This document shows positions 23,178 to 33,263 of a stretch of 33,510 nt of DNA, in pieces. Position 1 is the first letter of the stretch; every line of letters starts with the position of its first letter. The notes beneath the pieces were generated by a model. The model worked only from the letters and a program-made list of their open reading frames with translations. It was not told the origin of the DNA and did not search any database. Source of the DNA: a virus; IMG/VR virus record IMGVR_UViG_3300046543_000364, positions 1-33,510 of that record; one strand, 5' to 3'. The position numbers and the translations under genes were made by a program.

Positions 23178-23808
23178 GATTGTCTCCTGGCTCCTTCGTC
23201 CACTCTTCGGGTGGTGCGAGGTGGTGCTCGCGATGCATCATCTCACCGCGCGCCTCGATCCAGCCGCCGGTGTCGTTGGCCGATGGCGGCCAGAGAATGA
23301 AGCCATCGGTTTCGCTGTAGCGGATCATTGCGACCACGCCGCCATTTCGCTGGCTTTGCCGTTCCAGGTAGGCACGCAGTGCCGGATCGCGGTGGGCGTC
23401 GGGATAGCCGGGATCGACCCACACCTGGATGGCCGGGACGTTGAACGGCTCGCCACCGCTGTTCGGCACGCAGCGCACGACGTCGGGCATGATGTCGATG
23501 ACGTAGTGGCAGCGATCCGGGCGCGGCAGATCGGCCGTGTCGTCGTTGACCAGCCAGAGGCAATTCCAGACCCGACAGCAAAACGGCCGGTTGGAGTAGA
23601 TCATGCAGCCCTTGTGGACGCGTTGATGCGGACACCGCGCGCCTGCGCGCTTGGGAAATTCCGGGACCATGCCGACAAAATCATCGGCGGTCGCGAGGCC
23701 CGCGCCGATCATCGCCGGGATTGTTTCACCAACCAGCGGACTCTTGCGCTCGCCTTGCATCGGCAGAAGCTTGCAGCACGCGGTACACTCCCCGCACCTA
23801 CGCGACAT
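23122..23808 (-). CDS. YkgJ-family cysteine-cluster protein (putative Zn/Fe-S binding)
   Basis: The ATG at 23808 (GGAG six bases upstream) gives 228 residues beginning MSRRCGECTACCKLLPM. The CxxCxxCC pattern is the hallmark of the YkgJ/Fli-like cluster family (PF03692). Further Cys in CPHQRVHKGC and RPFCCRVWNC complete a probable metal site. Family members are found in many bacteria and phages; the biochemical role is mostly unknown. The C-terminus carries a segment with Trp and Pro (SETDGFILWPPS). Confidence 0.8.
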   Translation of the reverse strand: MSRRCGECTACCKLLPMQGERKSPLVGETIPAMIGAGLATADDFVGMVPEFPKRAGARCPHQRVHKGCMIYSNRPFCCRVWNCLWLVNDDTADLPRPDRCHYVIDIMPDVVRCVPNSGGEPFNVPAIQVWVDPGYPDAHRDPALRAYLERQSQRNGGVVAMIRYSETDGFILWPPSANDTGGWIEARGEMMHREHHLAPPEEWTKEPGDNHGKRQQQHRLSHADGKHA

Positions 23809-24307
23809 ACGCATCTCCGTAAATTTCCTGCGCAGCTTTGACCCACGCCATGCCTGCATCCTTGGCCGTGTCGAAGAGTCCAAGGCCAACGCGCTGGCCG
23901 TGAATGTCCAATGCGGCTCGGAACCGTAGACGGCCCGCTGGCGTCCGATACTGCGACACACCGCGATAGCCTGTGGTGTTGTTCACGCCTTTGCGACGGT
24001 TGAGCACGACCTTCGAATGCGGAAGCTCCCGAAGGTTGCTCCACCGGTTATTCGTCTGATCGCGATCCCGCCTCGAAATCTCGTGACGCGGCCATCGACC
24101 TCTGACGATCACAAATGCAATCACATGAGCGAGATAATGATGGCCATCGATGTAGAGCCGCCAATAATTTCGTACAGATTTGTTCCCGGCGAACCATCTC
24201 TTCGGTTGGCGCACGGTCGGCCGCTTCCACCTGAACTGCCCTGTGGTCCGGTCGTAGTCGAGCAGCGCGCGAATGCGCGTGGGGGGTGGACGTTGCCGCA
24301 TGGTCAT
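23798..24307 (-). CDS. HNH/AP2-type endonuclease-like protein with degenerate HNH site
   Basis: This protein has the layout of phage HNH endonucleases with a C-terminal AP2-type DNA-binding domain. It has LLDYDRTTGQFRWKR at the N-terminus, then HVIAFVIVRGRWPRHEI. The AP2-like part is NTTGYRGVSQYRTPAGRLRF and LFDTAKDAGMAWVKAA (about 102-165). In the family the catalytic region usually reads DHIN..D..DNR..NLR, whereas here it is SRRDRDQTNNRWSNLREL. The Asp-His pair is therefore replaced. The asparagines and the AP2 part persist. It may bind but not cut DNA. Start 24307 is uncertain. Confidence 0.7.
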   Translation of the reverse strand: MTMRQRPPPTRIRALLDYDRTTGQFRWKRPTVRQPKRWFAGNKSVRNYWRLYIDGHHYLAHVIAFVIVRGRWPRHEISRRDRDQTNNRWSNLRELPHSKVVLNRRKGVNNTTGYRGVSQYRTPAGRLRFRAALDIHGQRVGLGLFDTAKDAGMAWVKAAQEIYGDAYVA

Positions 24308-24362
24308 GCGTCGCGTTCTTGTGCGCGTGTTCGCCAGTCGCCCGATGGCTCTTCGCGCGGTC

Positions 24363-25037
24363 CTACTCCAAATCAACGACGATGTGCATGTCTCGGGTGA
24401 TGCGCAGCTTGAGGCCGCTGCGCTTTTCCAACTCGGTCTTGAGCGCGCTGACTTGGCGCAGCATGACTGCGAGCCGAACGCGCAATTGATCGTTGGTGAC
24501 GTCGGCGCCGATCTGCAGGCTCTTGTCGGCCTTGGCGGGTGGCGCGGTCGGACTGCCGTTGCCTGTCTTGGCGACAGCGCCAGTGGTCATATTGGCTGGA
24601 AGCCGATGCACCGTGCTGCTGGGCGGACCATCGACCCATGGCGATTGCGCCTTGATCCATTCTGGCGGCATCCCGCCGACGTGAATCTTGCCATCCTTGA
24701 CGCGCGCCGCCACCGCGACGGTGCGGCGCTCAACCTTGGTGAGCTTGGTCGGCACGAACGCGAGGGTCAGCACGATGCTGCGCGGCGACTGCCGGTAGTT
24801 GATTGCGTATGTCCCCGTCTCTTTGCTCTTGGTCGGCTCGATGATGAACCCCTCGTATGGCGAGCCGCGCACCGCGATGCGTGACGGCTCATCGAGCTTC
24901 ACCAGCAGCGTGCGCGGCACCACCGCACGCAGGGAAAAATATCCGGCGCTGCTCTTCGGCGTCGAGAACTTGATCTCCGACTCGTGCGCAACGCCGTTGA
25001 TGTCCTTGGTGGCCTGAGTGCTCGGCAAGACGGTCAT
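24363..25037 (-). CDS. Unassigned 224-residue protein, first gene of the leftward operon
   Basis: This is a beta-rich N-terminal half (KFSTPKSSAGYFSLRAVVPR, IVLTLAFVPTKLTKVERRTV) followed by a Pro/Thr linker and a C-terminal helix (VRLAVMLRQVSALKTELEKR, about 187-206). AGGGG-type sequence lies 10-13 bases before ATG. Being nearest to the promoter region, it is likely made first. I do not recognise the family. Confidence 0.65.
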   Translation of the reverse strand: MTVLPSTQATKDINGVAHESEIKFSTPKSSAGYFSLRAVVPRTLLVKLDEPSRIAVRGSPYEGFIIEPTKSKETGTYAINYRQSPRSIVLTLAFVPTKLTKVERRTVAVAARVKDGKIHVGGMPPEWIKAQSPWVDGPPSSTVHRLPANMTTGAVAKTGNGSPTAPPAKADKSLQIGADVTNDQLRVRLAVMLRQVSALKTELEKRSGLKLRITRDMHIVVDLE

Positions 25038-27290: not shown

Positions 27291-27324
27291 CCCGTGTTCC
27301 CCCTTCCGTCCTACTCCGACGAGA

Positions 27325-27345
27325 CTCCTAGGAGACTCCTAGGAG
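27325..27345. repeat. Two tandem 10-bp palindromes
   Basis: CTCCTAGGAG is present twice, separated by one A (27325-27334 and 27336-27345), inside an outer GAGAC/GTCTC pair (27321-27325 with 27348-27352). This is a plausible core or protein-binding site within the same gap. Confidence 0.5.
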
Positions 27346-27400
27346 TTGTCTCACTTCGTGTTTCTCCCAATGATCTCAGTGACGTCCGCGTTCTCTCAAC

Positions 27401-27430
27401 TAATCCGGACTAATCCGGACTAATCCGGAC
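27401..27430. repeat. Three tandem copies of TAATCCGGAC at the integrase 3' end
   Basis: The 10-mer repeats exactly three times. Read leftward, each junction supplies a TAG, and because 10 is not a multiple of 3 the three copies put a stop in all three frames. The integrase stop (27420-27422) is one of these. Confidence 0.75.
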
Positions 27431-28751
27431 TCGCCTTTTTGCGCGCCGCAACGCGCTTGGTGAGCACATGCTTGGCGTTCTCCATGTGCTCGCGCTTGTA
27501 GCCACGCGTCTGTTCGGCAGTGCCATGCGTGGCGACCCTTTGGGTGCGCCCGCTCTCGACGCCAGCGTCGTCTGCCTCGGTGATCGCGCCCGCGCGGGCA
27601 TCCCGGTTCTGCACGGCCTTGGGAATGCCAGCCGCGTTGGCCACCCGTCGCCATTTTTCATGGTACGCAGAACGGTCATAGGGACGCCCCGTCATCTCGT
27701 TGATCACCACCGGCCCGATGCGTTGCTCGCGCGGAATCCGTTCCAGCCACGCCTTCGCCAGGGGCGACGCATTCAGGTAGGCCATGGCGGTCTTCTTGCC
27801 CTTGCTCTTCGATGTCGGCTTTTTTAACTCGAACGTCACCGGATCGAGGTGTGTGCCCCAGGTCAGCCCGCGCCATTGGTAGCCGTCGCGCACCAGCGTG
27901 CCGTTCGCAGACTTCTCGACCGGCCACCACTGGCCGATGATGTCGGCCTGCCGCACGCCCGCCTCGAATTGCAGGACCGTGCCGAGCGCCAGCGAAAAAT
28001 ACGGTTTGCCATTCCATCGCATTTTGTCAGCCGCTGCGCAGAACGTTAGCAGTTGCTTGTGTGTGAGTTGCTCGTCGCGGCGCTCCGGGTTGGGGAAGCG
28101 GAACGGACTCCCTAGGCCGCCACCGGTCAGAATCAAAGCTAGCCTGTCGCAGCCTTCGATCCCGACCGTGAGGCCAAACTTCACCAGCCGCGTGAACTGC
28201 CCCATCGCGTTCTTGCCACGCGCGATCCGCTCAGGACCGCCCTCTCGATCCGGCTCGATCAAATGGTCGTACCATTGCCAGATTTGCTCGCCCGTGATGT
28301 TGACGAGCACGCGCGGGCCGACGAAATCGTAAAGTATCTTGTTCTGGTCGAGATACATTTTGCGCGAGTTGAACTTCACGCCAGTCGGCGTCTTCGAGTC
28401 TGGATTGTACGGTCGATTGATCGGCGACGCCGGGCTTGTCTCGTAGGCCCGAATGAGTCCCGCGACCGTCCCGTCGCAACGCGCGGCCACTTTCACGTTC
28501 GCGCGGTCGGCCGATCCCTGCCACTCGCGCATCGTGTTGGTCAGGTGACGGCACAACGCAGCGAGCGCCTCGGGCTTGGCGTCGTCGGCGAGCTTCACCG
28601 ACTTGGGCCGGTAGCCAGCCTTCACGGCTTTCTTGGCGGCGACCCAAATGGGAATACGTTTTCCTCCTGCCCGCTCGCGCCACTCAAGTCCTGGGGCGTC
28701 GAGGGTGTTGGCGTCGGCTTCGGTGGCAGTCTTGGTTTCTGCTTTGGCCAT
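27420..28751 (-). CDS. int: Tyrosine recombinase (phage integrase)
   Basis: This 443-residue integrase has a basic N-terminal arm-type region, a core-binding part at about 95-210 and a catalytic domain from about 225. Active-site residues can be placed: Arg267 (FEAGVRQADI), Arg386 (NRDARAGAI), His409 (ATHGTAEQ) and Tyr418 (TRGY), with the usual spacing of 23 and 9 residues. The family His before the second Arg is Arg383 here, a substitution seen in some members. It mediates attP x attB recombination. The N-terminal part overlaps the preceding small gene by 130 bases. Candidate attachment sequences lie just beyond its 3' end. Confidence 0.9.
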   Translation of the reverse strand: MAKAETKTATEADANTLDAPGLEWRERAGGKRIPIWVAAKKAVKAGYRPKSVKLADDAKPEALAALCRHLTNTMREWQGSADRANVKVAARCDGTVAGLIRAYETSPASPINRPYNPDSKTPTGVKFNSRKMYLDQNKILYDFVGPRVLVNITGEQIWQWYDHLIEPDREGGPERIARGKNAMGQFTRLVKFGLTVGIEGCDRLALILTGGGLGSPFRFPNPERRDEQLTHKQLLTFCAAADKMRWNGKPYFSLALGTVLQFEAGVRQADIIGQWWPVEKSANGTLVRDGYQWRGLTWGTHLDPVTFELKKPTSKSKGKKTAMAYLNASPLAKAWLERIPREQRIGPVVINEMTGRPYDRSAYHEKWRRVANAAGIPKAVQNRDARAGAITEADDAGVESGRTQRVATHGTAEQTRGYKREHMENAKHVLTKRVAARKKASPD

Positions 28752-30882: not shown

Positions 30883-30929
30883 CTAAGTTGCTCCTGTTGT
30901 TTGGTGTAAAAAAGAACCATTCCGCTCCT

Positions 30930-30988
30930 TGCCGCTCCACTCCACGCCTTGCCGATGCGATGCACTCCGCTCCTGCCGCGCCGCGCCA
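30930..30988. repeat. 59-bp exact direct repeat within the array (copy 1)
   Basis: Bases 30930-30988 are identical to 32084-32142, including one CCTG and the flanking pentamers, 1154 bases apart. This shows that the array grew or was rearranged by duplication. Confidence 0.8.
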
Positions 30989-32083
30989 TTCCTCGCCCGT
31001 CCGCTCCTCGCCTTTGCTATGCGTGCCGCTCCTGCCAATGCTCGCCATTCCTCGCCTCTTGCCATCCCTTCCGCACCCCTGCCGTTGCTCTCCGCTCCTG
31101 CCGATCCGCTCCGTTGCTCGCCCGTCCAGTGCTTGGCCGTCCGCGCCTCTGCGGTGCGAGCCGTTCCTGCCCTGCCGGTCCCTCACTTGCCGTTCCATTC
31201 AGATGCACGCCAGTACGCTCCGCTCCTGCCGCGCCGGTGCATTGCCGACCTGTGCCGTCCAGGCCCATGCGTGCCGCTGCTTTCCTTTCCTGCCGCGCCT
31301 ATGCGTTGCGGGCCGATCCTGGCCCATGCACGACCATCCCCGCCGTTCCTGCCAACCCGCGCCGATCCGAGCCATCGCACTCCTTGCCCGTGCATGACGA
31401 GCCGCGCCAAGCCGTTGCATTGCGATCCGCTCCTGCCGTTTCAGTCCTCGCCGCGTCCACTCCTGCCGTTCCTATCCCAGGCTTTCCAAGCCTTTGCCGT
31501 CCATGTCCCGACGAGCCGATGCGTGCCGCTCCTGCCGCGCCGCGCCGATGCAGACCCGTCCAGTGCTTGCCGTTGCCGTCCGCGCCGTTTCGTGCCGCCG
31601 CCATCCGCTCCTGCCACTCCTCGCCTCGCCCTTCCCCGCCTCGCCGATGCATGCCATTGCGGGCCGTTGCGCTCCGGTCCTGCCGCGCCGCTCCGCGCCG
31701 CTCCGTGCCACTCCTATGCTCGCCGATCCCACGCGTGCCGCTGCCATCCGCTCCACTCCTGCCGTTCCAAACCTCGCCGGGCCTAGCCGCACCGCTGCCT
31801 GCCTCTACCGTCCGCGCCGGTCCATGCCTATCCGCTCCTGCCGTTGCCTTCCTCTACGGTCCCAGACTGTCCGAGCCACTGCTTTCCAAGCCACTCCTGC
31901 CGCTCCCCTTCACTGCTGGCCGTTACATTCCTGCGCTCTGCTGTGCGGTGCCGTTCCACTCCTGCCGTTGCCCGCCGTACCTTTGCGTTCCTTCGCCATC
32001 CGATGCGGGCCGCTCCACTCCTGCCGTTCCAGTCCTCGCCGCGCCGCTCCTATGCTCGCCGACCATGCGCGCCGTGCCTCTCC

Positions 32084-32142
32084 TGCCGCTCCACTCCACG
32101 CCTTGCCGATGCGATGCACTCCGCTCCTGCCGCGCCGCGCCA
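32084..32142. repeat. 59-bp exact direct repeat within the array (copy 2)
   Basis: Identical to 30930-30988. Outside these 59 bases the flanking pentamers differ, so the identity is a segmental copy and not a side effect of the degenerate unit. Confidence 0.8.
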
Positions 32143-32447
32143 ATCCACGCCGCGCCCTCGCGATCCCTGCCCCGCCGATCCACGCCCCTCCTGCCGCGCC
32201 GAGCCTATGCGTGGCCGAACCTCTCCATGCCTCGCCCCGCACGCCGAGACGTTGCTCGCCTGTCCGCTCCTGCCGTTCCACTGCTGTGCGTGCCGGGACC
32301 ATCCGCACCGTTTCGATGCCTTGCTTTCCGCTCCTGCCACTGCTTGCCGTGACCATACGAGCCATCCCGGTACCATCCCTGCCTGTGCCAGCCCAGCCGC
32401 TCCGAACGCGGGCCGGTACGCAACCGACCCGCGCCAATCACAATGTT

Positions 32448-33263
32448 TTATTCGGCGGCTTCGCGAAGAGCCTGCTGCACACCACCAAACAAAAGACCTT
32501 TCTCGAAAAGCTCAACCTCCTCGGCGGTCGCGAGCCGCCAAGTGCCATAGGTGCCGCTCTTCGATTCCTTGCTGCCCGGCCGCCATTCGCACAAGCCATC
32601 GATGTGCCCGGCCATCGCGATGCCCTGCAGCAATTGGTTCGCCGAGATCATGCTCGGAAGATATTGAACGGAGATCGCCATCGCCCACGGCCAGTATTCC
32701 GGACGATGACGGATATCCACGACGCCGGTCTGATTTCGCACGACGTCCTCACGCATGCGCGGCCATTGACCCGGCGCATCGACCGGCAACTTCATTTGTT
32801 CGGCGCTCAGCCTTGGCCCGATGATGCGCACCAGATTGATGCGAGGATCGTCGGCGATGACGCGCAAGCCCTTCGCGGATTTTTGCGTGACGCCGCTGCC
32901 CTTCGGGAATCCGTTGGTGATCGCCGCCTTGATGCCGCCTGCCGGGACGCCATCGCTGCCGTCCGAGAGGCGATAGCGCGCCGCCTCGAAATTGGCTTCC
33001 GGGTCTTTCGCCTCGCGACCCTCGCTCGCCTTGCCCATGTGCTTGTCGCGGATTGAGCCGATCACCTTCTGATCGAACTGGTGCGCGATCATTGGCGCTG
33101 TCCCGACAATCAGTGTGGTCAGCGTCATGGTCTTGACGCCGGGAATGATCATGATCCCGGTCTTGCTGGTGATGATCTTTTCCGCAGGCTTCACGATTGC
33201 GGTCGCGATCTTCCTGGCCTCTGGCTTGTCTTCAACCTTTTTCGTCGTCGGTGCTTTGGTCAT
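32448..33263 (-). CDS. Unassigned phage protein, possible recombination-module component
   Basis: This 271-residue protein has a Lys/Ala-rich N-terminal extension (about 1-35), then IPGVKTMTLTTLIVGTAPMI and IAHQFDQKVI. It continues with RDKHMGKASEGREAKDPEAN and GGIKAAITNGFPKG. The C-terminal half contains RMREDVVRNQTGVVDIRHRP and ISANQLLQGIAMAGHIDGLC, then SGTYGTWRL. I recall this outline (a VGTxPxI segment, then the MREDxVR...DIRxRxE segment, then a GTY ending) from phage proteins encoded near RecT-type or other recombination genes, with no settled function. The pentamer array lies directly downstream. Confidence 0.65.
   Translation of the reverse strand: MTKAPTTKKVEDKPEARKIATAIVKPAEKIITSKTGIMIIPGVKTMTLTTLIVGTAPMIAHQFDQKVIGSIRDKHMGKASEGREAKDPEANFEAARYRLSDGSDGVPAGGIKAAITNGFPKGSGVTQKSAKGLRVIADDPRINLVRIIGPRLSAEQMKLPVDAPGQWPRMREDVVRNQTGVVDIRHRPEYWPWAMAISVQYLPSMISANQLLQGIAMAGHIDGLCEWRPGSKESKSGTYGTWRLATAEEVELFEKGLLFGGVQQALREAAE

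Follow-up and report, generated by a model that had tools for sequence, protein, structure and literature searches.

The window (the whole 33,510-nt stretch of viral DNA analysed here, IMG/VR record IMGVR_UViG_3300046543_000364) carries two genes on its minus strand, vipr (32448-33263, 271 aa, phrog_4652) and P2 (30313-30882, 189 aa, phrog_15946), and the gap between them is filled by an array of short degenerate units at 30917-32406. The vipr gene, oriented like the array, lies directly upstream of it, P2 is a conserved neighbour, and both genes are intact. A gene for an HNH endonuclease (phrog_99) is found on the minus strand at 23798-24376, and two short tandem repeats with 11-bp and 10-bp units (27313-27345 and 27399-27431) are located at the 3' end of a leftward 443-aa gene (27420-28751). 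The vipr gene is identical and the array has identical length in a second record, IMGVR_UViG_3300046559_000466 (61,456 nt), which probably represents the same virus, or one almost identical to it, on a longer contig.

The genes flanking the array

Pfam returned nothing for vipr and its neighbours. A profile built from 83 members of the vipr family matched PDB entry 36pp, 'SUSP1 Vipr protein', with E=1.2e-16, and this was the only significant match. The AlphaFold2 model of the window Vipr (pLDDT 85.7) was used in a Foldseek search, in which Csm3/Cas7 subunits made up almost the whole list of matches (best E 6.6e-6, probability 1.00). The product of 32448-33263 is a Vipr protein, a member of the RAMP superfamily with the Cas7 fold.

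VIPR (Viral Interference Programmable Repeat) is a class first described in a preprint of April 2026, where its RNA-guided code is presented as noncontiguous and perhaps older than CRISPR (PMC13142463). According to the preprint, Vipr is a RAMP and the guide RNAs (vrRNAs) form tracts, each with 9-16 YNNGG units. The NN pairs recognise DNA with one-base skips, which mostly fall at the codon wobble base, and competing phages are thereby repressed; the vrRNAs of Escherichia phage SUSP1 were sequenced and the reading of guides was published for this phage (PMC13142463). The class is known to us from this one preprint and from the one PDB entry (36pp).

In case of P2 the model was also of good quality (pLDDT 90), and its fold matches were weak and winged-helix-like only (E ~0.7). 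No detectable homology was found between P2 and vap1 of SUSP1. P2 is a candidate vipr-accessory protein (vap) of another VIPR type.

Structure of the array

The lag-5 identity of 30917-32406 was 0.470, as compared with 0.320 +/- 0.011 in mononucleotide shuffles and 0.320 +/- 0.012 in 200 dinucleotide shuffles (maximum 0.349). The pentamer-segmentation score of the array was 354, while dinucleotide shuffles gave 21 at most; since no score above 15 was obtained in the rest of the window, the array is the sole region of this kind, with a weaker pentamer tail beyond it, up to about 32437. Segmentation yielded about 280 pentamers, in 278 of which the second base of the plus strand is C. On the minus strand these read as M-N-N-G-[G/C] units, interrupted by the tetramer CAGG (CCTG on the plus strand), for example at 32269-32272 between guides 2 and 3 and at 31348-31351 between guides 15 and 16. 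There are 19-23 such tetramers, according to the parsing chosen at ambiguous junctions; most intervals between them equal 4 plus a multiple of 5 (59, 64, 69, 79 nt). A parse that rewards CAGG divided the array into 302 units, 23 of them four bases long, and 22 guides of 8-19 units with a median of about 12.

An earlier sequence-only reading had reported the array at these positions, with about 280 units, an almost constant C in position 2 and some 22 regularly spaced CCTG tetramers, and had named lag-5 autocorrelation as the check; all of this was confirmed. Its unit MNNGG stands as regards the period of five and not as regards a uniform GG, the last base of the minus-strand unit being G in 66% and C in 24%, so that the anchors are a mixture of GGC, GGA and GCA. 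The share of GG anchors is about 90% in other arrays. Since L023, a close relative, uses mainly a tight GCA anchor of its own (A 0.88, C 0.71), the mixture in the window looks like a lineage rule, and a pyrimidine is not obligatory as the third anchor base. The array is no satellite, as had been stated, although the units do not all differ between guides: the eight units of guide 5 (32086-32125, minus strand) recur without change at the beginning of guide 22 (30917-30971, minus strand), which indicates a partial duplication. In size the array is second in the list of arrays compared and among the largest examined. Because the units are degenerate, blastn of the array against phage DNA gave no match.

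Linkage of arrays and vipr

A degenerate DNA pattern (six units, CCTG, five units), which holds no protein information, was searched in IMG/VR and found at least 120 viral stretches. Lag-5 arrays were present in all but a few of the 120 stretches listed, and 105 of them gave a Vipr homolog in iterated profile searches with the 271-aa protein. Among the 15 without a homolog many have the array near the end of the sequence, and four keep P2, which is also carried by most of the listed stretches. Each array that was scored against a Vipr homolog lay on the vipr strand (139/139), in one of three positions: just upstream of vipr, just downstream of it, or about 430-900 nt downstream, past P2. Thus the arrays occupy intergenic regions flanking vipr in the same operon, as in VIPR. 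The reverse search agreed with this, since the phages found by the protein alone and checked (Mycobacterium F1, three Gordonia phages and cyanophage Cy-LDV1) all have an abutting array. The enrichment of CAGG in the 120 loci is partly due to selection by the pattern, and the phages found by protein show CAGG independently. The claims that similar arrays would occur in other phages and that the G-bearing strand is the transcribed one found support here, in so far as the operon has this strand as its sense strand in every case.

The same pattern, used in one genome scan, gave 22 stretches, many with Vipr; the carriers include Bradyrhizobium lablabi, Mycobacterium szulgai, uncultured Planctomycetota, Armatimonadia, Spartobacteria, Deltaproteobacteria, Betaproteobacteria and others. 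A few of these stretches, including two from Micromonospora, are probably simple-repeat false positives. Distant Vipr homologs were also seen in two plasmid records (Rhodoplanes, Paracoccus). The profile and fold matches of Vipr, together with the linkage of arrays to vipr, identify the window feature as a VIPR guide array, and its membership in VIPR is well supported.

Several loci showed peculiarities of their own. L068, L025, L038 and L064 have several arrays per operon, and L068 carries a second, distant Vipr homolog at 1035-1676. In the 1.6-kb array of L014 (1958-3549; also L120) guide blocks are separated by several near-identical modules of about 35 nt (CAGGCACGGGAGCAGCAGCATCCGGCGTAAAAGGGATGGA), which may represent another type of separator or processing element. 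In Mycobacterium phage Gorge (gp54) vipr and P2, two genes in relatives, form one open frame of about 405 codons, by either a fusion or a single-base indel. In the Gordonia phages Ecliptus and ODay the vipr module is situated in an unusual place, between the tail-assembly-chaperone and tape-measure genes, where it adjoins a divergent repressor-like pair. Public records annotate guide arrays as protein-coding in the Mycobacterium phages Donkeykong (gp48), DRBy19 (gp51), BobaPhett (gp51) and Florinda (gp59).

CAGG as a boundary between guides

The distance from one CAGG to the next is regular, its SD being 6.4 units against 10.6 after permutation (permutation minimum 9.5), and in most arrays the unit before CAGG is CRHGG. 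Homologous guides could be compared in 12 F1 mycobacteriophages. All nine substitutions were at NN, while anchor differences were found in none of 192 comparisons. Guide lengths change by whole units in these phages, with indels in multiples of 5 and not of 3. Donkeykong has two extra whole guides relative to Brocalys, cut exactly from CAGG to CAGG, and in ByChance, another F1 phage, one whole guide is missing. The spacing and the gain and loss of whole guides show that CAGG is a module boundary. Its molecular role may be that of a processing site or a filament terminator, for example.

The repeat tracts combine a constant anchor with hypervariable NN, as VIPR guides do, though in the window the anchor is G-[G/C]-[A/C]. 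The middle bases, passed over as filler in the sequence-only reading, are the guide information. Their composition fits antisense codon positions 1-2 best among the six frames, although weakly.

Candidate targets of the guides

Nine-unit cores of the window guides, read with a one-base skip, were used in the target searches. Guide 16 (31293-31347, minus strand; NN = AC GG TG GT TG CA TC CC AC TA GC) decodes antisense to AYVG[DE][CW][HQ]T[HQ]PV, the JAMM motif of JAB proteins. Its core had four matches in viral contigs, three of them independent, and all are JAB genes; each match is antisense and in frame, skips the wobble base and reads YVG[D/E]WHTHP. A ThiF-JAB fusion is among them. PADLOC assigns the matches to its JAB and E1-E2 models, which we take to be CBASS components. 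A JAB gene of the anti-phage (CBASS-type) class is a strong lead as the putative target of guide 16.

The lead obtained for guide 7 (31965-32019, minus strand) is weaker. This guide decodes antisense to VPV[FL]V[FL][HQ][DE]GAT, and all nine searched units match, in the wobble frame, a gene for a conserved alphaproteobacterial-type protein of 249-275 aa in L171. When three mismatches were permitted in 150 Bradyrhizobium-family genomes, seven of the ten matches belonged to the same gene family, presumably von Willebrand A-like, which had no match in Pfam. No match to guide 7 was seen at one mismatch or fewer in 347 genomes of the order, nor at two or fewer in 385 genomes of the class. Since two glutathione-transferase-like matches (L183, L189) compete with the main family, an alphaproteobacterial-type gene is proposed as its target provisionally.

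In these nine-unit searches no window guide matched a target over its full length, the flanking units being mismatched. Guides 3 and 10 had no matches, guide 3 had none in 150 Bradyrhizobium-family genomes either, and the one match of guide 2 had no support from flanking units. An exact search of the collected loci with all guides and skips of 0-3 gave five matches at eight units with skip 1 versus four in the reversed control, and none at ten units. No hit was obtained with the decoded peptides by tblastn. Two other candidates were discarded: the two matches of a conserved F1 guide in viral contigs lay in AT-rich contigs and were rejected as chance, and one two-mismatch match of an M. szulgai guide in 198 mycobacteria was at about chance level.

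A model for the array and its alternatives

With a probability of about 0.93, the array serves a phage VIPR system as its guide-RNA locus, with the vipr gene adjacent and with tail-less, CAGG-delimited guides. As judged from the shared strand and position, the array would be transcribed leftward with vipr and P2. By homology, the Vipr subunits, small Cas7-like RAMPs, would coat this RNA, plausibly one per pentamer, each gripping the constant G-G/C-M anchor while the two variable bases are left exposed. Successive dinucleotides would pair with DNA with a one-base skip, usually at the codon wobble, and transcription of the target gene would be blocked. The guides would follow each other head to tail without a 3' tail, the one-base-short CAGG separating guides of 8-19 units. 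The targeted genes would probably belong to competing or host-borne elements, with one guide reading the catalytic motif of a CBASS-type JAB.

The looser anchors of the window and the partly duplicated guide could also be explained by a relic, that is, by neutral expansion of a VIPR array whose former guides decay by slippage. However, the second anchor base is kept in 278 of 280 units, the tight GCA anchor of L023 suggests a lineage rule, and vipr and P2 are intact, which makes a relic very unlikely.

The sequence-only reading had considered a structured leader with stacked two-layer G-quadruplexes. A structural RNA of this or another kind, regulating a downstream gene, would agree with the two-tetrad quadruplex formula, to which GGN3GGN3GGN3GG conforms, and with the G strand being always sense. 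The folding energy, however, was not better than that of shuffles (z=+0.52, in a model which leaves out quadruplexes), and no Rfam family was found in the array. Many anchors in the window are GC and not GG, which would break quadruplexes and yet suits an anchor held by a protein. Neither the hypervariable NN, nor the modularity of whole guides, nor the Cas7-fold neighbour is explained, and we regard a structural RNA as highly improbable.

Binding of a protein to the DNA itself, either as a half-turn-phased site or as a substrate for annealing or packaging, was suggested by the period of five bases. Some single-strand annealing proteins are reported to bind about 5 nt per subunit, which speaks for such an array. 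The proposal that a nearby gene encodes the partner appears to be right, but this neighbour is a Cas7-type RAMP and not an annealase. The four-base CAGG shifts the period off the helical repeat, so that the half-turn-phased site is unsupported, and several separate arrays can flank genes within one operon, always in sense orientation; binding to DNA as the function of the array is hardly credible. That the array encodes a low-complexity protein has next to no probability, in spite of open frames on both strands and the gene called over an F1 array (Donkeykong gp48), since the period of five, already named against coding in the sequence-only reading, rotates the frame and CAGG shifts it again so that no single frame is kept, the F1 guide indels are multiples of 5 and not of 3, and no protein family matches.

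What the guide-array reading adds is fourfold: punctuation by CAGG, a variant anchor, an array of this size and a possible anti-defence target. As the survey shows, tail-less arrays with CAGG delimiters are common (at least 120 viral stretches, with hosts from actinobacteria to planctomycetes). The array supplies a testable rule for where guides start and end, the GCA variant would reveal what Vipr reads, and guide 16 offers a candidate target in anti-phage immunity. It is tentatively proposed, as a possibility to which we give less than even weight, that this is a VIPR type in which CAGG punctuates one continuous RNA of about 20 guides, at least one of them aimed at an anti-phage CBASS-type JAB; it would then serve RNA-guided counter-defence and not only phage-phage warfare.

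Comparison with known systems

The VIPR type II system of SUSP1 is alike in its RAMP-fold Vipr, in the sense-strand pentameric tracts of anchor and NN around the vipr operon and in a small gene downstream of vipr, accessory in SUSP1 and a candidate for this role in the window; with the same segmenter, pentamer tracts of the same kind were found in SUSP1 in the published places. In SUSP1 the vrRNAs number four, lie apart from one another and comprise about 12-16 TNNGG units; each ends in a structured 3' tail, and CAGG is absent. The window has about 22 tail-less guides arranged head to tail, CAGG delimiters, GGC, GGA and GCA anchors and an unrelated candidate accessory protein. Its anchor, G-G/C-A/C, differs from the published GGY. 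Between the window guides no 3' tail, no conserved structure and no hammerhead ribozyme of Rfam was found. Lacking the 3' tail, and with a P2 that is not homologous to the SUSP1 vap, the window array is not a type II VIPR. Among the several architectures named in the preprint are 'staggered arrays with overlapping vrRNAs' (PMC13142463, fig. S18), and going by this one phrase the window, a continuous array in which the register shifts between guides, probably has the same architecture.

There is also a likeness to Mycobacterium cluster F1, the Gordonia phages Ecliptus, ODay and UmaThurman and cyanophage Cy-LDV1, which share the phrog_4652 Vipr, a P2-family gene and arrays without tails, in which CAGG or a tetramer resembling it is the delimiter. 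They differ in having shorter arrays (4-7 blocks in F1) with GGC or GGY anchors, and in F1 the array is upstream of vipr.

With the Cas7/Csm3 backbone of Class 1 CRISPR the window Vipr has in common the RAMP fold, a Gly-rich C-terminal motif and a predicted oligomer on the guide RNA. The array was already held not to be CRISPR by the first reading, and it has indeed no direct-repeat family with spacers, while Cas1/2 and other cas genes are missing among the neighbours scanned. In CRISPR the information is a contiguous spacer; in the window array it is carried by two bases in every five.
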